A stretch of DNA of 64,000 nucleotides from Marinobacter alexandrii (lineage in GTDB: Bacteria > Bacteroidota > Bacteroidia > Cytophagales > Cyclobacteriaceae), in the NCBI GenBank assembly GCA_039984955.1, contig JBDWTN010000007.1, positions 186,001 to 250,000 on the forward strand. The letters run 5' to 3'. This document shows, one piece after another, positions 34,009 to 61,849 of the stretch. The notes under the pieces are model-generated. The model was not told where the DNA came from, ran no database searches, and was given only the letters and a program-made list of their open reading frames with translations. Every line of letters starts with the position of its first letter. The first letter of the stretch is position 1. The position numbers were made by a program, and so were the translations under genes.

Positions 34009-36669
34009 CTAATCTGTTCTTAAAGATTCAACAGGATTTACCTTCGATGCTCTTATGGTATGATAGCTTATTACCATCATCGCCAATAAGATTGAGATTA
34101 CACCGCTAATGATAAATAATTCAATACCAATCTCTGTTCTATAAGCAAAGTTTTCTAGCCATTTATTAATTAGCAATAATGTTATTGGAACTGAAAGAGC
34201 TATAGATATAACTATCTGTAAATAGAATCCTTTCGCTAATAATCTGAATATCGAAAGTGCAGAAGCACCCATCACTTTTCTGATCCCGATCTCTTTCACT
34301 TTACTATTCACTACCAGTAATGATAGACCTAGTAATCCAAGAATTGCTATGATGATCGAAAGAAATGTAGCTACAGAAATAAGTCTATTCATACGAGCTT
34401 CATTTTCATATTGTAATTTGATTTGCTCATCTATAAAGTTGAAATTCCAATTCTCGTTTGGAAACACCGCTTCCCATTCTTTCTTTAGAATTTTCGTCGC
34501 TTCTGTTAGATCAGATCCAGTATAGGTAAATACTAATTTAGGATCCAAAGAATCCGAGAAATCAGCATCTGAAACTCCTTTAAAAACAGGGACGGGGTTT
34601 TGTACGATAACCAAAGGTTCCACTACACTATGTAGAGAAGAATAGTGAAAGTCTTTTGCTACTCCGATGATCTGATGATCTCCAAAATCATCACCAGGAA
34701 GCTTCTTACCTAGAGGATCTTCCAAGTTAAAATAATCAACTGCAGTCTGGTTGAGAATGATTGATTGACGATCATCTAATCCATTTCCTACTTCAAAGCT
34801 TCTGCCCTCAGTTATCTTAATATTGAAAGCGGAGAGATAGTAAGAATCGACAGTTAGTATTCTAAACTTTCTAAAGTTTCCATCTTTGTCTTCGAATCCT
34901 AGTTGAGCCCAGCCGTTGCGTCCAAATATATGTGTTGCCATCGCTATATTCTTTATGTCTAGATACTTGGATAGCCCTGCTTTTAGAATTTCGCCATTAT
35001 TCATTCCAGAAGTGATAGACTTACTCAATCCTTGAGCTGCAGGATCTGTGGGTAGTCTTGTAGAAATAACGGCCTCATAATTGTATCCTAAATCTTTGCC
35101 TTGAAGAAAGTTGATTTGTTTTTTCATAATCAAAGTAGTACTTATCAAGAATACAGTGATTAAGAATTGAAATACTACCAAACTCTTTCTTGCAGTGAGT
35201 TTCCCCAATGATAGATTACCCTGAAGTATTTTAATTGTTTTAAATCCAGAGAGAATAAAAGAAGGATAAATACCTGAAATTATGCCAATTGTAACGCCAA
35301 TTGCAATAAAAATAAGCAAGTGCCAGGCTTGAAAATCATACAGTATAGAAGTTCCTGTGAGTGTGTTAAAAGTGGGTATAAGCAAAATAGCTATAGCGCT
35401 ACCAATAGACATTGCTATTAGTGATAACAACAAACTTTCGCTGAGGTATTGATAAATCAAAGTTCTTTTGTGAGCTCCTAACACCTTCCTCATACCGACT
35501 TCCTTCTTGCGCTTAAGTGATTGCCCCATAGCCAAAGTAGTGTAATTCACGCATGCTATAATCAAAACAAGCAAGCCAATTGCACCTAGTATATACACAT
35601 ATTCTGGATTTGCTACGGGTGCATATCCCAGCGGGATATTTGGGTTTAAATGAATGTCTGTCAAAAGCTGAAGTCCTATATTGTACTCTCCTCGGTTTAC
35701 TTCTTCACCCAGAAAACTCATCACAACATCTTGCATCTTTTCATCAATCATATCTACAGTTGCTCCCTCTTTAAGCAAGACATACGTTTCTGTCACAATA
35801 GTAAACCAACCACTCAATGCTCCTTCTGAATACAACTCTCTATTATTACCAGTAGATATAGCTAGATTAAATCGAATACTAGATTCATCTGGTATATCTT
35901 TCATTATAGCAGACACGGTAAAATCCCTAATGTTTTCATCAATCTGCAGCGCAAGCTTCTGCCCTATTGGATCACGATCTCCAAAGTATTTACCAGCATA
36001 CAACTCGGATATCACAATATCATTGCGCGTAGGTAGTGGTGATTTCTCGTTTCCCTCTATTATTTTGAAGTCAAAAACATTAAATAAATCTGGACTTACA
36101 ACGGATACACGTTCATCGATTCTATTTTCCCCTCTTCCAACCAAATGATTTTGTTCGATGTACTGAATTGCCCGCTCTACTTCTGGGAAATTCTCTTCCA
36201 ACAGAGCTTCAAATCTCAATGGTGTAATTGAATTAAAAAACTCTTTCCCATCTCCATAATCCTCCTTAAGCCATGTTCTATAAATACGATCTTTCTTTTT
36301 ATGAAATTGATCATAGCTGAATTCTTGCTTAACATACAATCCAAGAAGAATGAAACAGGTTATTCCTATAGTTAGCCCTAATAAATTGATAGAGCTATTG
36401 AATTTATCTCGCCATAGTACTCGCCCTGCGATTTTGAAGTTGTTTTTAGTCATCATAAGTCCTGAATTTTTGAATTTTTGATTCTTTTTGAGAGCAGACC
36501 ACCTGAATGATCGAATTACTAACCACCAATAAATCAGGTCTGCATTTTTCCTACTTTTCTGATATTTATCCTCGTAAACTTCATACAGGTCTCCTTGCAA
36601 ATCCTCCAATAAATAGGGATCACAAAACCATTCTAGTAATCGATCTGCAAGTTTTGGAGGTTGGTTCAT
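34009..36669 (-). CDS. FtsX/MacB-type ABC permease with PadR-linked prefix domain
   Basis: An 886-residue protein. Residues 1-65 form the prefix found on PadR-controlled permeases (LADRLLEWFCDPYLLEDLQGD). Then come two MacB/FtsX halves: membrane helix near 90 (INLLGLTIGITCFILLGLYV), periplasmic domain, three helices around ACVNYTTLAMGQSLKRKKEVGMRKVLGAHK, a second periplasmic domain and three final helices with VKEIGIRKVMGASA. The chain ends in NPVESLR. It exports or works on envelope substrates with an ATPase encoded elsewhere. It overlaps its PadR gene by four bases (ATGA). Confidence 0.92.
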   Translation of the reverse strand: MNQPPKLADRLLEWFCDPYLLEDLQGDLYEVYEDKYQKSRKNADLIYWWLVIRSFRWSALKKNQKFKNSGLMMTKNNFKIAGRVLWRDKFNSSINLLGLTIGITCFILLGLYVKQEFSYDQFHKKKDRIYRTWLKEDYGDGKEFFNSITPLRFEALLEENFPEVERAIQYIEQNHLVGRGENRIDERVSVVSPDLFNVFDFKIIEGNEKSPLPTRNDIVISELYAGKYFGDRDPIGQKLALQIDENIRDFTVSAIMKDIPDESSIRFNLAISTGNNRELYSEGALSGWFTIVTETYVLLKEGATVDMIDEKMQDVVMSFLGEEVNRGEYNIGLQLLTDIHLNPNIPLGYAPVANPEYVYILGAIGLLVLIIACVNYTTLAMGQSLKRKKEVGMRKVLGAHKRTLIYQYLSESLLLSLIAMSIGSAIAILLIPTFNTLTGTSILYDFQAWHLLIFIAIGVTIGIISGIYPSFILSGFKTIKILQGNLSLGKLTARKSLVVFQFLITVFLISTTLIMKKQINFLQGKDLGYNYEAVISTRLPTDPAAQGLSKSITSGMNNGEILKAGLSKYLDIKNIAMATHIFGRNGWAQLGFEDKDGNFRKFRILTVDSYYLSAFNIKITEGRSFEVGNGLDDRQSIILNQTAVDYFNLEDPLGKKLPGDDFGDHQIIGVAKDFHYSSLHSVVEPLVIVQNPVPVFKGVSDADFSDSLDPKLVFTYTGSDLTEATKILKKEWEAVFPNENWNFNFIDEQIKLQYENEARMNRLISVATFLSIIIAILGLLGLSLLVVNSKVKEIGIRKVMGASALSIFRLLAKGFYLQIVISIALSVPITLLLINKWLENFAYRTEIGIELFIISGVISILLAMMVISYHTIRASKVNPVESLRTD

Positions 36670-37612: not shown

Positions 37613-40228
37613 ATGAATAGCGCACAGCTACCTAAATGGTCTCGAAGGCTTCTTAGGCTTTTCATTCATGGAGAGTATTTGGAAGAGATAGAAGGGGATC
37701 TTGAAGAAGTCTTCTATGATGATTTAGAAGTCTATTCGGTAAAAGAAGCACGAAGAAAATATTCATTCGGTGTTTTGAAGCTCTTCAGGGTTAGCTTATT
37801 AAAAAACTTAAAATGGATTTACAAACTAGGACTAATTATATCAATTATGAGGACTTTAAAAATCGCTTTCAGAAATCTGATTAAATTCAAAACTCACTCA
37901 GCTATCAATTTGGTTGGGCTTTCACTTGGGCTTGCTATTGGGGGGCTCATACTCTTGTATGTAACTGATGAGCTTTCCTTTGATGATTTTCATACGAATG
38001 GAGATCGCATCTACAAGGTAGTTACTACTTCTCCAGAAGGTGGAATGGAAACCAATGCACATCCTATTGGGTATCAACTTAGGACTAAATATCCTGAAGT
38101 AGAGTCTGTTTTATATACTCGATGGGCATCTCCGAGTTTTAAGATAAACTATGAGGGAAAAAGGTATGATCACAAAGTGTACTACGCAAGTGAAGAATTT
38201 TTTCATATTTTCTCATTTCCTCTAAAATCAGGTGACCCAAAGACTGCTTTAAAAGATCCTTACTCAATCGTAATCACTGAGGCTCTGGAAGAGACCTACT
38301 TTGATGGGTCAGCATTAGGTCAAGCCATTACGCTGAGAGATTCCGTGAATTTTACAGTCACCGGAGTTGTGGAAGACCTCCCAAAAAACTCACACATCCA
38401 ATTTGAGATGCTCATGTCCTTTTCCACCTTCCCTGATTTCAGATGGTTTAGTTATACTGATGGTTGGGGGAATTTTGATGTTAGAAATTATATTTTGCTC
38501 AAGGAAGGTGAAGATTCTGAAGAATTTCAAGCTAAAATCTCTAACATTTATGATGAGAATGTTGGAGATTGGTTAGACGAAATGGGCATGAAGTTTACTA
38601 CAACTCTAATGCCATTGAAGGAAGTCTATCTAGGAGATGTCTTTTGGAACGGTTTTGGGCCAAATAGTTCTGGAAAACGAGTAAAGACTGTAACCATCAT
38701 TGCAGCATTCTTACTAATTCTTGCCTGCATTAACTATATCAATTTAAGCACTGCAAGATCAGCTTATAGAGCAAAAGAAGTTGGGATGAAGAAGGTGGTT
38801 GGATCATCAAGAGGTTCAATCATTGCGCAATTCATGACTGAATCTTTTCTACTAACTATGATTTCTCTGATCTTCGGCATGTTGCTGATTATGATTACTC
38901 TACCATTCTTTAATGATTTGATGAGTAAAAGTTACACACTTAGTTCCTTTCTCACACCTTCATTTACCTCTGGAATTCTTGTGCTTGTCTTCGCAATCAC
39001 TTTTCTATCGGGGTACTATCCTGCTCTTGTTATTTCTGGATTGAGACCCCTGAACGCTCTTAGTGGTAAATTAGATAAGGCCTATCAAGGGTTAAACCTT
39101 CGCAAAACACTAATCACTTTCCAGTTTTTCATTTCCTCTGGGCTGGTCCTCTCCACTCTATTGGTCATCAATCAATTAGCGTATATGCAAACCCAAGATC
39201 TGGGATTCGATAAAGAACAAGTACTCGTTATTAATGCAACGGATCTTCCCAAATCAACTACACGAAAAGTACTCAAAAACGAATTGGAGGCATTGGTTGG
39301 GGTGCATAAAGTAACACATACGAATGCACTACCTGGAAGGCCGGGGTGGCAAGGGCAATGGGCTTACCCCGGAAAACAAGAAGGTGAGCAGGTAGACACT
39401 GAATATATGGCCATCGATGAAAATTATATAGAAGCTCTTGGGTTGAAAATAGTTGCTGGAAGGAATTTTGAAACCAGTAGGCCTTCAGAACTTAAAGATG
39501 GCCTGATCATCAATGAGTCCTGCGTTATAGCGATGGGTTGGGAGAATTCAGAAAATGCCATTGGAAAGCGGATTGTCTCTCCTTCGGGAACTCCTGAAGG
39601 TAATGTGATTGGCGTAGTAAAGGATTATCACGGACTGGGTCTTCAAGAGCAAATCTGGCCGAAGGCAATGGATTATACAGGAGATACGTATGGGAGGTAT
39701 TATGCAGTTAAGTATGACGCTAAACAAACCTATGATTTAATCAAGGGCATTGAAAAAACATGGAGTTCTACATTTGGCGATTATTCACTAGAGTACTTCT
39801 TCCTTGATGAAGACTTTGATAGGCAATATAGAGAAGAGAATCAGCTCGCTCAGGTATTATCAATCTTTGCTATCATCATCATCATCGTTTCAGCTATTGG
39901 GTTATTTGGATTGATCTCGTTCGTTGCTCTAAGCAGAACTAAAGAAGTGGGAATTAGAAAAACACTAGGTGCAAGTATTGGACAAATCGTTTTCATACTA
40001 TCGAAGGAATTTGTTTTACTCGTCATCCTAGGCAATTTTATGGCTGTTCCATTGACTTGGTATTTTGGTAATCAATGGCTCAATGACTTTGCTTATCACA
40101 CACGTATTGATCCTACTATTTTCATCATCACTATTGCAGCTACAGTTGTCATTGCATTTTTGACAGTAAGTATCCAAACAATGAAGACAGCACGGATGAA
40201 TCCGGTAAAAGCGTTAAGGTATGAGTAG
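37613..40228 (+). CDS. FtsX/MacB-type ABC permease with PadR-linked prefix domain
   Basis: An 871-residue protein with the same plan as the 34.0-36.7 kb permease. It has an N-terminal prefix (SRRLLRLFIHGEYLEEIEGD), a first membrane helix (INLVGLSLGLAIGGLILLYV), INYINLSTARSAYRAKEVG, a second core with SRTKEVGIRKTLGASIGQIV, and the end NPVKALRYE. The two are paralogues in a divergent arrangement. No ATPase gene is adjacent. The upstream PadR gene ends one base before the start. Confidence 0.92.
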   Translation: MNSAQLPKWSRRLLRLFIHGEYLEEIEGDLEEVFYDDLEVYSVKEARRKYSFGVLKLFRVSLLKNLKWIYKLGLIISIMRTLKIAFRNLIKFKTHSAINLVGLSLGLAIGGLILLYVTDELSFDDFHTNGDRIYKVVTTSPEGGMETNAHPIGYQLRTKYPEVESVLYTRWASPSFKINYEGKRYDHKVYYASEEFFHIFSFPLKSGDPKTALKDPYSIVITEALEETYFDGSALGQAITLRDSVNFTVTGVVEDLPKNSHIQFEMLMSFSTFPDFRWFSYTDGWGNFDVRNYILLKEGEDSEEFQAKISNIYDENVGDWLDEMGMKFTTTLMPLKEVYLGDVFWNGFGPNSSGKRVKTVTIIAAFLLILACINYINLSTARSAYRAKEVGMKKVVGSSRGSIIAQFMTESFLLTMISLIFGMLLIMITLPFFNDLMSKSYTLSSFLTPSFTSGILVLVFAITFLSGYYPALVISGLRPLNALSGKLDKAYQGLNLRKTLITFQFFISSGLVLSTLLVINQLAYMQTQDLGFDKEQVLVINATDLPKSTTRKVLKNELEALVGVHKVTHTNALPGRPGWQGQWAYPGKQEGEQVDTEYMAIDENYIEALGLKIVAGRNFETSRPSELKDGLIINESCVIAMGWENSENAIGKRIVSPSGTPEGNVIGVVKDYHGLGLQEQIWPKAMDYTGDTYGRYYAVKYDAKQTYDLIKGIEKTWSSTFGDYSLEYFFLDEDFDRQYREENQLAQVLSIFAIIIIIVSAIGLFGLISFVALSRTKEVGIRKTLGASIGQIVFILSKEFVLLVILGNFMAVPLTWYFGNQWLNDFAYHTRIDPTIFIITIAATVVIAFLTVSIQTMKTARMNPVKALRYE

Positions 40229-55206: not shown

Positions 55207-56337
55207 CTAACCAGTTTTCTTCAAGCCAAACAATCGCCAGAGAAGCCTTACCCTTCGAATCAAAAACTCATAAAGCAGCCAACTAAGCCCAAACGTCCCG
55301 ATCAACATCACGCTGAATTTTATCACAAGACTCCATTCCATATCATAGATGTAATAGCCTATAACTATGATGATTGTCTGATGTAGGATGTAAAATGGAT
55401 AAACCGCTCGATTAGCATATGCTATCGTCCTACTTTTCTTATTGAGATTCAAAGAAGACCACCCAAAAATTGTCAATATCCATGCCCAGAGGTTGATGAC
55501 CTTTATAAGTGCCTCTGTGAAATGAACTATGTAAGAATCCTCTAAAAAATACCATCTGTACAAGAGCGCTGCAAAGCACATAACTCCCATAACCAGCATC
55601 TTTTTCCAAATGCGTCCTACAGCATTCCAAAACTGCTCTTTAATAGAGATCAGAATAAACCCATAAAAGAACAAGATTATACTACTCATAAAATTAAACC
55701 AGTCCCATACCAGATTGTGCGTAACATCAAAGAATGGCTCTAGAAATGCTTCGCAGAGATACAAAGGCAAAATCAGCCAAAACAAAAAATATGGATTTCT
55801 GGACACTCGTTTTCGTATCCAGGACAAAAAAGAATGATTTGGTTTGTTTCTCAGCTGAACAAATATGGGAGTGAGAACGATAGAAAAAACCAATAGATAG
55901 GGTAAAAACCAGAGGTGATGCCAGCTAAAATTTCCTTCGGGATAAAACCCATTTATAAACTCCCAACTTGCAAACCACTCTAGAAAAGAACCAGAGTAAT
56001 CACCATCATAGACTCTTTCCATATAGACCTGAGGCGAAACAATCAGAACCATACCTACAGCCAGCGGAATATAAAGACGAATAAAACGTTCTTTTATAAA
56101 CTGGCCAGCAGAACGAAAAGAAAGTGCATAAGCAGTTCCCATTCCTGAAATAACAAACAAGATGGGCAATCTCCATTGATTGAGAAATAGCATGGGATAT
56201 CTCAGCCACCCATATACTTCATTGTTCTTGATGTGCCATCCCCAAGGAACGAAAAACATCCCTACATGATAGAAAATTAAAAGACTGAACACAATGACTC
56301 TAAGCCAGTCCAAGTCATATCGACGTACTTTTTCCAT
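55207..56337 (-). CDS. acyltransferase-3 family membrane protein
   Basis: 376 residues with about ten membrane helices. It starts YDLDWLRVIVFSLLIFYHVG, the Asp-His region of the acyltransferase-3/OpgC family, and has NQWRLPILFVISGMG and FSWHHLWFLPYLLVF, also family marks. It would transfer acyl groups (acetyl, succinyl) to envelope glycans or lipids. Its start is one base after the AraC-FtsX fusion stop, so it is downstream in one operon. Confidence 0.9.
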   Translation of the reverse strand: MEKVRRYDLDWLRVIVFSLLIFYHVGMFFVPWGWHIKNNEVYGWLRYPMLFLNQWRLPILFVISGMGTAYALSFRSAGQFIKERFIRLYIPLAVGMVLIVSPQVYMERVYDGDYSGSFLEWFASWEFINGFYPEGNFSWHHLWFLPYLLVFSIVLTPIFVQLRNKPNHSFLSWIRKRVSRNPYFLFWLILPLYLCEAFLEPFFDVTHNLVWDWFNFMSSIILFFYGFILISIKEQFWNAVGRIWKKMLVMGVMCFAALLYRWYFLEDSYIVHFTEALIKVINLWAWILTIFGWSSLNLNKKSRTIAYANRAVYPFYILHQTIIIVIGYYIYDMEWSLVIKFSVMLIGTFGLSWLLYEFLIRRVRLLWRLFGLKKTG

Positions 56338-56338
56338 G

Positions 56339-59300
56339 TTACTCGTATCTCAATGAATCCACTGGATTAGAGAAGGTGATCTTAGTTACCGCTGAACCTA
56401 CACTTAGAATAGCCACAACCAGTAGAGCAAGACTTGCCCAAATAAATGGCATAATTCCAAAAGACGCTTGGTACGAAAACTCGCTCATCCATGTTTGCAT
56501 GAGCAAATAGGCCAAAGGAAGCCCAATCAGAAGCGCAATTGTAATCAGCTTTAAAAACTGACCTAGCACCATGCGCATGATTTGAGGAGAGCTAGCTCCC
56601 AATATTTTCCTCATACCCACTTCTTTGATTCTGTGGCTAAGTGTCGCAATGGCCATTCCTAGCAAACCAAGACATGCCAATGCCACCGCTATACCTGTGA
56701 AGACGGAAAAAATATTTAGCGTTTTCATCTCTCCTTCATACAATTCAGCCAACTGCTGATCCATGAAGTAATACTCAAAAGGAAGTTCTGCATTCAATTG
56801 GCTGTAAATTTCTTCTATCTCAGTCATCACGCTTCCGAATTCATTCCCATCCAATTTGACCAAAACATGCCCGGCTGCATAGGGTTCGACTACCATAAGT
56901 AAAGGTTGTATTTCTTGATGAAGCGATTTGTAATGAAAGTCTTTTACCACACCAATGATTTGACCTTCGTAGGTTGTATCATTATCAACCCACATAAGCA
57001 GCTCTCCTACTGGATTTTCCATGTTTAGCTGCTGGGCAGCTATTTCATTGATAACAAAACTGGCATTGGCTGTATCTGATGCATAAGATGGATCAAAAGC
57101 TCGGCCTGCTACAGTTCTTAAACCCAGTACTTCCTCTACCCCAAAATCAACCATTACCTCCGAAAAATCTATTCGATTGTCCGGGTTATTCTTCGCATAT
57201 ACAGGATGTTGATTAAACTGACCTCCAGGTAGGTTAGAAATCATTGAAGTACTTCTTACGCCAGAAATAGTTTCAATTTGCTGCCTCACGGAATAGACAG
57301 CAGGAAGGTTTATGCCTCCCGTAGCAATGCTCACTGGAATATTGAAAGAGATGACTGCTTCTTGATCAAACCCCAATTCTGTATTTTTCATAAAATCAAT
57401 CTGACGGAAAATAATCAAGCTACCCGTAATCAAAATCGCAGAAACTGCAAATTGCAAAACAACAAGTACACTACGCATTCTCACCCCTTTTGCTGAAGTA
57501 GTCAGCTTTCCTTTCAATACCTCCGTTGGTTTGAAAGAAGAAAGCGCTATTGCAGGATAGAAGCCCGCCAAAAGACCAATACCTAGAGACAGTCCCAATG
57601 ATTTAAGAAAGAAAGCACCATTGAAAATAGAATCAGTCATGAAATTTTTTCCTGATAGAAAATTGAATCCGTTAATAAAAAGGTATGCAACAATCAGAGA
57701 GAGGATGAATGCAATCAAAGAAAAGATGATTGATTCTAGGTAAAACTGAATAGTGAGATTAGCGGAAACTGCTCCCAATGTTTTGCGTACACCAATTTCC
57801 CTTGCTCGTTCCAGAGATTTTGCAGTGGTTAGATTGACATAATTGATGCCTGCAATAGTCAGCAAGAAAACTAATGTAGCTGTCAATATGTAGATATACA
57901 GCACATTCCCATTGCTTTCCAGCTCCCACCGTAAGTTTGAATGTAGATGAATATCTTCTATTGGCTGCACTCCAAAGTATCCAATCGATGCATCCATCAA
58001 TCCATCTATGCTTTCCTGATCCCAATCTAAATAGTTTGAAACCCACTCTGAGATTTTGGCTTGCAGCTCTGCAGGGTCAACTCCTTTGCCAGTTTTGATA
58101 TAATTGAAATGACCAAAATCTTCCCATGTCATCCAATTATCGTTGGGATTGATCTGTTTCAAAGTGATATAAGGAATGATGGCATTGAAGTGAAAATGAG
58201 CATTTTCAGGCATCCCTTTCACAACTGTTGTCACAGCAATAGGCATATCGTTTAACTCAAGTTCTCTTCCAATAGCGCTCGAATCGCCGAAATATTTTTG
58301 AGCCATTGCTTCTGTGATAATCAAAGAGAAAGGCTTGGTCAATGCTTCTTCATCTCCTTCCAGAACTTCAATATCGAAAACATCAAAAAAAGTGGAATCT
58401 GTAAAAAAGAAATCCGCCTCTTCAAACAACATATTAGTCTTAGGATTTTTCAACCTCACTGATTCCTTGCTCAGCCCCGGGCCATACCATGGTGATATAG
58501 AAACTGCTGCCTCCACCTCTGGCCAGTCATTAGCCATGGCTTGTGCCATTGGATGTGGTGTTCTTGTTTGTGGATTATCTCCCATCCATGTAATTCGGTA
58601 GATCTGGTCATAATCTGCTATGCCTTTGTCATATGAAAGCTCATCTTCAATAAACAAGTAGATGAAAATACTACACACAAACCCAACTGTCAAGCCAAAT
58701 AAATTTATCAACGAGAAGAGGCTATTTCTCTTCAAATTTCTACTAAACACTTTTAGAAAATTAAGAATCATGCTGCTTTTTATTTTTAGGTTAAAAACAT
58801 GATTCAAACTAAAAGTCTCACTGCCGAATGATGGTTCTTTCCGTTCGGATAGACGTTCTTCCCCATAAGTCTGAACGTTCTTTGCCTCACGATACTCCGA
58901 TGGAGTAAGCCCAGTTCTCTTCTTAAAAGCAGTGTTAAACGCTGATTTTGAGTTGTAGCCAACCATAGTAGCTACATTTTCAATTTTTATCTCCTGATAT
59001 CGTTTATCTCTAAGAATTTTACAAGCCTCTCTTATTCGGTAGCGTGCCATCAAATCCTGAAAGCTAATTTTCAATGACTCATTGAGTACTTGAGATAAAT
59101 GATGAGTAGTCGCTCCCAATTCCTCCGCCAGTTTACTTAGTGATGCATCGTCTCTTTGGTAGAACTTTTGTTCATCCATCACAGCTTCTAATTTTTCAAG
59201 AATTGAGGCTTTTATAGATGGATTGAGTGTCGACTTTTGATACTTGTTTCCTACTGGCACAGGTGTCAAAAAATTTGACTCTTTCAGCAGTTGGTAAAGT

Positions 59301-59854
59301 ACTTGACCAATAAGCAGCAGTAATAATAACGCAAAAGTCGGCGCTCCTACACCAATGAATGCTGTAACTAAAAGAAACAGATTATAGGTAATAAAATTTC
59401 GGAACCATCTGATTCTAGAACCCGCATTTAAAAAGTATGAAAATCCTCTGGAGTTACTCTCTAAGTACATCAATCGGATAGTTGAGAAAATATAGCTAAT
59501 AATGACTATTCCACTAAAAGCTGCAAGCACATATGCCTGATCCACGTAGATAGACGTAGCAATGAGTAGAACAACTGGCAACAGATGAATTCCACTTATT
59601 CGTTTCTTTTGAAAGAAGAAGGCCTTTGCATACAAAAACAAGACGATCGAAAGAGTACCCAATAGGGTAGGTCTGTTTAAATCGAATCCAAACTGCTGAG
59701 AAACTAAAATTCCAAGATAATTGAGAGTCAATACGCCAAGCCAACGTCCAGCGGGGAATTTATTTATCAGCAATATCACACCTGACAGGGTTCCTATCAA
59801 GAGGATACTCATCGTAAAAGTCTCAACCCAAGGGAATGACAACCACTGATCCAT
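56339..59854 (-). CDS. AraC-type regulator fused to FtsX/MacB-type ABC permease
   Basis: 1171 residues in one open frame. Residues 1-200 hold about six or seven membrane helices (TFTMSILLIGTLSGVILLI; LLIATSIYVDQAYVLAAF). Residues 235-340 are an AraC-type DNA-binding domain: SKLAEELGATTHHLSQVLNE and IENVATMVGYNSKSAFNTAF followed by KKRTGLTPSEYREA. A linker of about 25 residues leads to a full permease from about 362: SLFSLINLFGLTVGF, INYVNLTTAKSLERAREIG, HRIKEVGMRKILGASS and the end NPVDSLRYE. The membrane-AraC and FtsX parts are both known alone. Internal Met 362 (58771) could serve as a separate start. Confidence 0.88.
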   Translation of the reverse strand: MDQWLSFPWVETFTMSILLIGTLSGVILLINKFPAGRWLGVLTLNYLGILVSQQFGFDLNRPTLLGTLSIVLFLYAKAFFFQKKRISGIHLLPVVLLIATSIYVDQAYVLAAFSGIVIISYIFSTIRLMYLESNSRGFSYFLNAGSRIRWFRNFITYNLFLLVTAFIGVGAPTFALLLLLLIGQVLYQLLKESNFLTPVPVGNKYQKSTLNPSIKASILEKLEAVMDEQKFYQRDDASLSKLAEELGATTHHLSQVLNESLKISFQDLMARYRIREACKILRDKRYQEIKIENVATMVGYNSKSAFNTAFKKRTGLTPSEYREAKNVQTYGEERLSERKEPSFGSETFSLNHVFNLKIKSSMILNFLKVFSRNLKRNSLFSLINLFGLTVGFVCSIFIYLFIEDELSYDKGIADYDQIYRITWMGDNPQTRTPHPMAQAMANDWPEVEAAVSISPWYGPGLSKESVRLKNPKTNMLFEEADFFFTDSTFFDVFDIEVLEGDEEALTKPFSLIITEAMAQKYFGDSSAIGRELELNDMPIAVTTVVKGMPENAHFHFNAIIPYITLKQINPNDNWMTWEDFGHFNYIKTGKGVDPAELQAKISEWVSNYLDWDQESIDGLMDASIGYFGVQPIEDIHLHSNLRWELESNGNVLYIYILTATLVFLLTIAGINYVNLTTAKSLERAREIGVRKTLGAVSANLTIQFYLESIIFSLIAFILSLIVAYLFINGFNFLSGKNFMTDSIFNGAFFLKSLGLSLGIGLLAGFYPAIALSSFKPTEVLKGKLTTSAKGVRMRSVLVVLQFAVSAILITGSLIIFRQIDFMKNTELGFDQEAVISFNIPVSIATGGINLPAVYSVRQQIETISGVRSTSMISNLPGGQFNQHPVYAKNNPDNRIDFSEVMVDFGVEEVLGLRTVAGRAFDPSYASDTANASFVINEIAAQQLNMENPVGELLMWVDNDTTYEGQIIGVVKDFHYKSLHQEIQPLLMVVEPYAAGHVLVKLDGNEFGSVMTEIEEIYSQLNAELPFEYYFMDQQLAELYEGEMKTLNIFSVFTGIAVALACLGLLGMAIATLSHRIKEVGMRKILGASSPQIMRMVLGQFLKLITIALLIGLPLAYLLMQTWMSEFSYQASFGIMPFIWASLALLVVAILSVGSAVTKITFSNPVDSLRYE

Positions 59855-59971
59855 TAATCAAAAATGGGGAAATAGTTGGATTTGATAAGCTATGGTCTAG
59901 TTTTTCTTCATATGACATTCGAAACGCGTTACTAATTAGGTCAATTATATAAATTGTCAATCGATATCAAT

Positions 59972-61849
59972 ATGAAAACCTTAGCCCTTGTTTCAGTTCT
60001 AATGGCAAGCCATTTGTTATGTGCTCAAAATTTTAATGAAATTTTGGATAGTGCACTAGTCATTGAGGATAAAAAGAAGGCACTTGACTACTATATTTCT
60101 TATCAAAATCAATTTTCAGGCGTAGATAAAGCACACTACCTGTACGGACTAGGTGAGCTTCATTATTCTATGAGAATGCCATTGGATACAGTAATTAAAA
60201 CCTATTCATTAGCACATCAAAAATTTCAAGAGAGCGAGATGGACAGTATGGCTTTTGAATCACTTTTTGAAATTGCCTCGAAAGTTCGAAGAAGTGGGAA
60301 TAGAAAAAGAGCGGTTCAATATTATCTGAATGCTGCTGAATTTGCTAAGAAAACCGATCAGCGAGTTTTGGAGGGAGATGCGTTGAACAGCACAGGTGTA
60401 AATCTGTATCATCAAGGTGAATACGTCGAAGCATTGAAGTATTATCTACGTGCAAACAAAATCTATGAAGAACTGGAGGATCCGGAAAATATTGCTAAGT
60501 CATACAATAATATTGGAATCATTTACAAACTCTTCAATAATTATGAATTAGCCATAGAGTACTATCAAGAATCTTTAGAAATCAGGAAAAAAAATAATCT
60601 AAAAAATCAGACAGCACCATATTTCAACTTAAACGAGCTTCATCATTTCATTGGCGACCACAGAAAAGCCTTATTCTATTCCAATGAGTCGTTGAAAGCA
60701 GCCAGAGAATATGATAATAAAGTCTGGGAAATTGATGTGGTAATCAGTCATATAAAAGATTACCAGTATCTAAATGAACCAGACTCGATGAAACTATATG
60801 TTAATTTGTTGTTTGAGTTGATCGAAAATGATCCCTCGATGGTGCCCACTGCTAGGAAATTTTTAGGAATCTATTACATTGAAATTGGCAAATCCCGGGA
60901 AGCAATTACAGCTTTAAAAGAGGCGCTTGATTTTTTTGAAAAGGACAGTGACATTGACCAGATAGAGTTAATAAATAGTCACATTGGTGATGCTTACATG
61001 CAATTGAGGTTATATGCTAAAGCAATAGAATACTATTATGTAGCATTAAACATGGCCATTGACGAGAATTTCAGTCCTATGATCAACCTTGCGATGGAAA
61101 AGCTACATCCAGCCCTTTTAGCCTCTGGAAAGGTAGAAGAAGCGTATCACATGCTGGATTCACTCCGACTAAGAGAAGATAGTTTATTCAACGAATCTAA
61201 AGCGAGTATCACTGGTGCTATGGAAGCAAGAATGAACTTAATAGAAGAAGAAAATCGTAACACGATGTTAGTGAAAGAAGCAGAAATACAATCCGCCCAA
61301 ATTGCTAATCAGCGTATCATAATTCTGCTAATAAGTTCGATTTCTATTGGGTTGATTTTAGTAAGCATTCTATTTGTTAAACAACAAAAAGTCAAAAAGA
61401 AACTAGCTGAAAAAGAAAGGGAGTTAATCGCCTCAGAGCTTGATTACAAAAATCAAGAGCTCATCAATTTCGCAGTTCAGATTACTCAGAAGAATGAGTT
61501 TATAAAATCTTTGAATGAGAAAATTCAAAGTATTGAAAATTCCGATCTGGTAGGTATCCAAGAAATCGTGAGAGCCAATGAATCTATCACCAAGGATCGT
61601 GAAGAATTTGATAGGTATGTTCAAAATGTATGCGAAGGCTTCTTTGCCAAACTCAGTGACTTGTATCCAGAAGTTACTGCTTCTGAAAAACGACTGGCCG
61701 CACTTCTCAGACTCGACCTAAGCTCAAAAGAAATATCTACCGTATTGAATATTTCTCCTAAAAGTGTAGACATGAGCAGGTATAGACTCAGAAAGAAAAT
61801 GAATCTAGAGGCATCTGCAAATTTGTCGGAAGCACTTCAATCCATCTAA
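59972..61849 (+). CDS. TPR-TM-HTH transcriptional regulator
   Basis: 625 residues from the ATG at 59972, which gives a signal peptide (LALVSVLMASHLLCAQ); a TTG further upstream is unlikely. TPR repeats fill about 30-410 (GDALNSTGVNLYHQGEYVEA; KSYNNIGIIYKLFNNYELAI; INSHIGDAYMQLRLYAKAIE). A membrane helix (IIILLISSISIGLILVSILF, about 450-470), a coiled coil and a LuxR-like HTH (LDLSSKEISTVLNISPKSVD) follow. It would sense in the periplasm and act on DNA from the membrane. It is divergent from the AraC-FtsX gene, with about 115 bases between. Confidence 0.88.
   Translation: MKTLALVSVLMASHLLCAQNFNEILDSALVIEDKKKALDYYISYQNQFSGVDKAHYLYGLGELHYSMRMPLDTVIKTYSLAHQKFQESEMDSMAFESLFEIASKVRRSGNRKRAVQYYLNAAEFAKKTDQRVLEGDALNSTGVNLYHQGEYVEALKYYLRANKIYEELEDPENIAKSYNNIGIIYKLFNNYELAIEYYQESLEIRKKNNLKNQTAPYFNLNELHHFIGDHRKALFYSNESLKAAREYDNKVWEIDVVISHIKDYQYLNEPDSMKLYVNLLFELIENDPSMVPTARKFLGIYYIEIGKSREAITALKEALDFFEKDSDIDQIELINSHIGDAYMQLRLYAKAIEYYYVALNMAIDENFSPMINLAMEKLHPALLASGKVEEAYHMLDSLRLREDSLFNESKASITGAMEARMNLIEEENRNTMLVKEAEIQSAQIANQRIIILLISSISIGLILVSILFVKQQKVKKKLAEKERELIASELDYKNQELINFAVQITQKNEFIKSLNEKIQSIENSDLVGIQEIVRANESITKDREEFDRYVQNVCEGFFAKLSDLYPEVTASEKRLAALLRLDLSSKEISTVLNISPKSVDMSRYRLRKKMNLEASANLSEALQSI

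Follow-up and report, generated by a model that had tools for sequence, protein, structure and literature searches.

An in-frame fusion of a membrane AraC regulator to a MacB/FtsX permease in Bacteroidota, with a translated linker that may be the regulator's former operator and promoter

Why does one gene of Marinobacter alexandrii encode a membrane region, a DNA-binding domain and a transporter permease, parts that usually belong to separate proteins, and what is the stretch that joins the last two? The gene lies in 64,000 nucleotides of contig JBDWTN010000007.1 (assembly GCA_039984955.1, positions 186,001 to 250,000), called the window here and numbered from its first letter. From an ATG at 59854 to a stop codon at 56341-56339, a frame of 1171 codons runs without a break (59854-56339, minus strand) through a multi-helix membrane region, an AraC-type helix-turn-helix (HTH) domain, a linker and a double MacB/FtsX permease with eight transmembrane (TM) segments. 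A first-pass annotation of the window had proposed such a single frame without stating the strand, and the frame is confirmed. The reading we favour, and regard as probable from sequence comparison, is a stop-loss fusion: the regulator gene would have been read through its own operator and promoter into a permease gene, and the internal site probably drives a permease-only product.

The DNA-binding domain was recognized by Pfam as HTH_18 at residues 242-323 (58886-59131; 65.5 bits with a cut-off of 33.6; E 5.6e-18), and HTH_AraC likewise scored above its cut-off, so that the protein carries the two-HTH domain of AraC regulators. The linker, residues 326-361 (58772-58879), leads into the permease, residues 362-1171 (56342-58771), in which two MacB_PCD stretches (best, 381-602) and two FtsX stretches (best, 1051-1164) were all above the Pfam cut-off and hydropathy averaged over 23 homologues gave 8 peaks. 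The closest fold to the permease part of an AlphaFold model was E. coli YbbAP, followed by MacB, BceAB and LolCDE, among others; by its domains and fold matches, the permease belongs to the MacB/FtsX (type VII) superfamily. Residues 1-200 (59255-59854) are hydrophobic, with 6 averaged peaks, two of them adjoining. The model, with a mean predicted local distance difference test score (pLDDT) of 61, is poor before about residue 270 and has seven main helices in the N-terminal region, every one with a pLDDT below 50. The hydrophobic multi-helix N terminus of the first-pass annotation is thereby upheld, and its number of seven TM helices is likely. In the membrane and linker regions, the model is too weak to serve as a guide to contacts between the parts. 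Lysine and arginine amount to 0.16 per residue in the AraC-bearing region and to 0.15-0.19 in the permease loops 671-708, 767-796 and 1073-1099, with a low 0.08 in the two large domains. The positive-inside rule therefore places the AraC domain and the three loops together on the cytoplasmic side.

Is such a gene more than an accident of one assembly? The same domain order was found in 25 of 390 genomes of the family, in 12 genera and with the window's own included (two of these fusions, in genomes G002 and G535 by our numbering, are interrupted by contig ends), and in 15 genomes, again counting the window's own, of 146 relatives searched. With 25 loci in the same order, chance and an assembly or frameshift artefact are very unlikely; as far as genome comparison can tell, the fusion is genuine and conserved. 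A search of the class (395 genomes) revealed three fused genes in two genomes of another family, f61, and searches of the phylum (395 genomes) and the order (291 genomes) yielded no additional intact fusion. The genome searches scored no more than the best 6-12 first-look candidates of each genome, and some fusions may have been missed. A tree of the AraC parts unites the 25 family fusions in one clade (100/99) and places the three from f61 in a second, apart from the first, and two changes were required in 200 of 200 bootstrap trees; the pattern is most simply explained by two separate fusion events. The permease tree, which leaves out G535, groups 24 family fusions with one unfused permease that has a PadR gene upstream (G065), the placement of which was not resolved. 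Separate but adjoining regulator and permease genes occur in three genomes (G003, G716 and G711), with regulators of other subfamilies.

Some variants of the arrangement were also seen. One f61 genome, G257, has two fused genes in tandem (L134:264-3923 and L134:4314-7979) whose AraC parts are very similar but whose permeases belong to separate branches of the tree, which looks like an exchange of permeases behind one regulator. Genome G115 has a broken fused gene (L194:4238-6193). Among plasmid records, none covers 80% of the first 405 residues, and the sole notable match from Bacteroidota, an unannotated stretch of a Spirosoma plasmid (L204:4501-5187) similar to the N-terminal part, reaches 61% coverage.

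The frame of the linker has been kept open. In an alignment of 23 fused genes, which leaves out G002, G535 and the three f61 proteins, in-frame stops were absent from 23 of 23 linkers; the other two forward frames contained 36 and 67 stops. Single-base shuffling (2000 shuffles) gave a mean of 55 stops and not one shuffle with zero. Linkers measure 105, 114 or 117 nt, ATG included, and all length changes are multiples of three (23/23). The linker is also constrained as DNA. Its synonymous difference was smaller than that of the HTH and permease parts in 9 of 9 pairs (for example, 0.12 versus 0.80 in G005/G007 and 0.00 versus 0.26-0.28 in G641/G604), and in 8 of the 9 it also lay below that of the membrane region. 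When the whole gene was scanned, codon identity at unchanged residues was highest at amino acids 326-340 (0.75; expected, 0.35) and peaked again at 348-362; the excess was 0.39 at the top and at most 0.11 in every interval outside 310-375. Both subgroups of the fusion showed this codon conservation separately. The scan, like the motif training described below, excluded the near-copies G604 and G003a, and the subgroup scan G083 as well. Judged by stop counts and codon conservation, then, the linker is shown to be selected both as protein and as DNA.

The linker contains a 42-nt motif (58838-58879) that we propose, from sequence comparison, as an AraC operator. Within it, an inverted repeat, ACGTTC-N14-GAACGT (58853-58878), was present at the same place with at most 2 mismatches in 21 of the 25 family fusions; in the upstream 2 kb, to the extent that sequence was available, none of these fusions had it. 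A longer pattern had one genomic site at 1 mismatch, within the fused gene, and seven at 3 mismatches. A genome-wide regulon defined by the short repeat was rejected, as 31 matches at up to 1 mismatch compared with 78 for a reversed control. The first-pass annotation had suspected a local target in the divergent intergenic region 59855-59971. No copy of the inverted repeat was seen there with 2 or fewer mismatches; a local target is still probable, but its likely position is within the gene itself. The divergent gene bordering that region (59954-61849) does encode, as had been supposed, a TPR protein with an HTH, which is of the LuxR type by Pfam.

The motif is not confined to the fusion. Downstream of each of the four nearest stand-alone regulator relatives (L200, L201, L202 and L203) lies an acyltransferase gene, and a homologue follows, always on the same strand, in 27 of 65 unique stand-alone loci; these loci were retained as the best-scoring ones rather than sampled at random, and near relatives are among them. 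A 42-nt matrix trained on 21 fused linkers only was compared with 6200 dinucleotide shuffles and applied to 24 of the 27 acyltransferase loci, three with wider gaps being excluded. The non-coding gap between regulator and acyltransferase exceeded the 99th percentile of the shuffles in 22 of 24 loci and equalled or exceeded their maximum in 16, whereas 253 nt scanned at each locus without an acyltransferase gave 4 of 38 above the 99th percentile and 1 of 38 at or above the maximum. The -7 consensus in this phylum is TAnnTTTG according to the available portions of PMC6847099 and PMC9723704, and this box stands 25 or 26 nt past the motif in 15 of the 24 gaps; the remaining 2 of the 17 boxes were elsewhere. 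Among the fusions, subgroup B linkers carry TAnnTT[T/C]G at 26 nt (10/10), and the window has a degenerate -7-like box, TTAGTTTG (58805-58812), at a place like that of the relatives' TAnnTTTG; we propose it as an internal promoter. A scan for promoters of the Sigma-70 type gave no excess (4 found versus 4.0 expected, with a model ill-suited to this phylum). The spacing of motif and box thus recurs behind stand-alone relatives, where a membrane AraC gene, a motif with a -7 box and an acyltransferase gene make a probable operon with a regulator site, a unit not named in the literature examined. Fused and stand-alone genes are alike in regulator family, motif and box spacing. They differ in that the motif is non-coding and followed by the acyltransferase in the stand-alone loci but coding and continued into a permease in the fusion. 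A stretch that in the relatives forms a promoter and its upstream site is thus part of the coding sequence in the fusion, and we infer that the linker is the regulator's ancestral operator and promoter, now translated.

Methionine occupies column 362 in 28 of 28 fused proteins, the sole invariant Met column of the 23-row alignment, and the corresponding ATG (58769-58771) has an A-rich context. In Flavobacterium johnsoniae, initiation is favoured by adenines at -3, -6, -12 and -13 (PMC6847099, in the portion available). At Met362, the frequency of A was 0.65 at -3, 0.65 at -6 and 0.71 in -15 to -11, compared with 0.24, 0.30 and 0.27 at the same positions of 539 other in-frame Met codons. The junction Met of 19 PadR-type permeases lacked the -3/-6 signal (0.26 and 0.26 versus 0.29 and 0.33 for 349 other Met codons), and A at -15 to -11 was raised there as well (0.54 versus 0.28). 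This Bacteroidota-type start context suggests a second, permease-only product, predicted to start at Met362, and the full-length protein and this product may both be made at once.

We propose the following as the most likely course of events. A membrane AraC regulator gene would have lost its stop codon and been read in frame across the regulator's own operator and promoter, which lay downstream, and on into a permease gene already under that promoter's control. The ancestral order was probably regulator, operator, acyltransferase, a permease being gained later between operator and acyltransferase; the window would then retain all four together. From one open reading frame (ORF), a full-length membrane regulator-permease would be made, with operator and promoter within its linker, and the internal promoter would probably drive the free permease, beginning at Met362, together with the acyltransferase gene that follows in this genome. 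The cytoplasmic AraC domain, between two membrane parts, would bind the internal site and set the amount of free permease, with an ATPase acting in trans. Such a circuit would be local and complete in itself, and could plausibly serve in envelope stress or in the export of a membrane-active compound. Families of the acyltransferase and MacB types hint at envelope modification or at export of such compounds. From genome comparison we infer that the AraC domain binds the site, that transcription also starts within the gene and that a second product results, and likewise the direction of regulation, the signal and the substrate.

Several observations weigh against this proposal or stand beside it. 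The -7-like box is imperfect in the window's own subgroup, A, in which all 13 rows lack TAnnTTTG, 4 of 13 have TAGTTTG and the rest are weaker. Four of the 25 family fusions (G025, G056, G083 and G598) lack the inverted repeat even when 2 mismatches are allowed. Close relatives contribute some of the 24 gaps, and the independent cases number fewer than 24. For G037/G548, one of the 9 pairs, the synonymous difference of the membrane region was as low as that of the linker (0.36 each). Because 20 of 23 PadR-type permeases likewise have a Met at this position, the conservation of Met362 by itself was discarded as proof of an internal start. In a control with 4 PadR-type orthologues (52 comparisons), codon identity was raised near the junction (0.79 versus 0.43 overall), and it also reached 0.86 and 0.73 in two other places. 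Finally, no gene for an ATPase that could drive the permease was found within 10 kb of the fused gene among the ATPase matches used. The raised codon identity at the prefix/permease junction was seen in the orthologues L070:3329-6052, L072:2066-4774 and L075:12403-15126.

How do other explanations fare? The full-length fusion alone may matter, as a BceAB-like sensory transporter in which the state of the permease is passed to the AraC domain and on to genes elsewhere; the conserved linker DNA would then be at most a site for control of the gene itself. The strongly kept frame and the common cytoplasmic side of AraC domain and permease loops, as judged from lysine and arginine content, agree with this, but it does not account for the occurrence of motif and box in the gaps that follow stand-alone regulators, for the start context at Met362 or for the absence of other good genomic sites for the longer pattern, and we consider it unlikely. 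Also unlikely is a cis-acting transcription factor. Here the AraC domain of a chain still being made and inserted, held by membrane helices on both sides, would bind the operator of its own gene a few codons downstream. By this speculative route, the nascent product would switch the very gene copy that encodes it and pull that copy to the membrane. Free permease subunits would then be added and alter the composition of the sensor. It is improbable that the open frame is a by-product, with AraC part and permease acting separately after internal initiation or cleavage and the fused chain doing little: the adjoining separate genes in G003, G716 and G711 (though with regulators of other subfamilies) and the Met362 start context speak for it, but 23 of 23 linkers without a stop or a non-triplet length change, where shuffles predict many stops, speak against it. 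Very improbable, lastly, is an RNA hairpin that tunes permease translation in place of a DNA operator, for although the inverted repeat could form a hairpin and 3 of 6 linkers folded better than nearly all of 200 shuffles (4, 1 and 0 as good; 63, 24 and 44 for the others), RNAalifold gave no consensus structure, base-pair changes and covariation were not above shuffles, the linker had no Rfam match and the relatives have a promoter-type box at a fixed distance past the motif.

We prefer the stop-loss fusion with an internal operator, and it differs from known systems in several ways. The HAAS-PadR dyad fused to FtsX/MacB permeases has been proposed as an alternative to two-component systems (PMC11237479, available portion). 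Like it, the fused protein combines a MacB/FtsX permease with a regulatory part at the N terminus and with a transcription factor linked to it; unlike it, the factor is of the AraC type and on the chain, together with its own membrane region, and there is neither a prefix nor a PadR neighbour. The fused protein also falls among the transmembrane transcription regulators as outlined in the available portion of PMC10269533, with membrane helices and a DNA-binding domain on one chain and no kinase or receiver, but it adds a whole permease behind the DNA-binding domain; the word "permease" is absent from the main text of that source as available. In BceAB-BceS, a type VII ABC permease is required for signalling to gene control at the membrane (PMC5985334, available portion); it is compared here for its way of working and has a separate histidine kinase and ATPase, neither of which Pfam detected on the fused chain. 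ADOP (TIGR03434) and E. coli YbbP share the two MacB-type halves per chain, and YbbAP is the best fold match, but these matches do not extend over the 7TM-AraC part. ADOP was the best NCBIfam model for the permease at 310.9 bits, below its cut-off of 622.3, and the protein is not assigned to it. Nor is it assigned to MacB tripartite efflux, as an ATPase was found neither on the chain nor among the matches within 10 kb. In the open-access literature searched on AraC, FtsX/MacB permeases and stop-loss fusions, titles and abstract openings did not describe this arrangement.

The surroundings of the fused gene set it apart from the other permeases of its genome. A search with the fused protein gave 71 FtsX-type permease matches in the 4.9-Mb genome, a single fusion among them; 55 sit in prefix-size frames (845-1000 codons), and for 39 a PadR match lies on the same strand up to 600 bp upstream. 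The two neighbouring permeases in the window (34009-36669 and 37613-40228) carry perm_prefix_2 (1e-13 or better) and have a separate PadR gene, just as the first-pass annotation had described them; if perm_prefix_2 is equated with HAAS, as we presume, the prefix-plus-PadR permeases of this genome would fit the HAAS-PadR dyad of PMC11237479. Viewed from the other side, 39 of the genome's 42 PadR matches stand just 5' of an FtsX-type permease. The fused gene has no adjacent PadR gene, the nearest of the 42 matches being about 14 kb away, and no perm_prefix_2/HAAS prefix was seen among the best 25 of 34 NCBIfam hits of its protein (to E 0.0016). An ABC ATPase match lies within 500 bp of 1 and within 5 kb of 4 of the 71 permeases (45 of 49 ATPase matches were used, four weak ones being excluded).

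At 55207-56337 on the minus strand, an acyltransferase gene (Acyl_transf_3 by Pfam) follows the fused gene after one spacer base, as first noted. Taken as a hint at the target, it proved useful, though not as expected: near the fused loci examined, an acyltransferase is present at the window's locus only, but homologues follow the stand-alone regulators. A conserved operon partner of the fused gene was looked for and not found, as no neighbour family exceeds 8 of the 25 family loci; the one that reaches 8 lumps different ABC ATPases, and most neighbour families recur inside one genus. By Pfam, 17 of 20 neighbouring proteins belong to assorted unrelated families (CoA transferase, MlaE, DUF2461, DUF2911 and others) and 3 were unmatched. 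At the fused loci of genus g8 (L126, L129, L130 and L131), a two-gene set precedes the fused gene on the same strand, and in L130, where it was scanned, it consists of an MlaE permease and an ABC ATPase.

Fusions of genes tend to be viewed at the level of the protein; in this case, a regulatory region appears to have been swallowed by an ORF. The linker was apparently retained for both jobs across 12 genera, reading frame and operator constraining each other. A family of membrane-bound AraC regulators from Bacteroidota thereby gains a candidate operator and promoter that can be tested. If the proposal is true, a second protein is predicted that ordinary annotation would miss, and sensor, transcription factor, operator and target would lie within one gene, a compact natural system.

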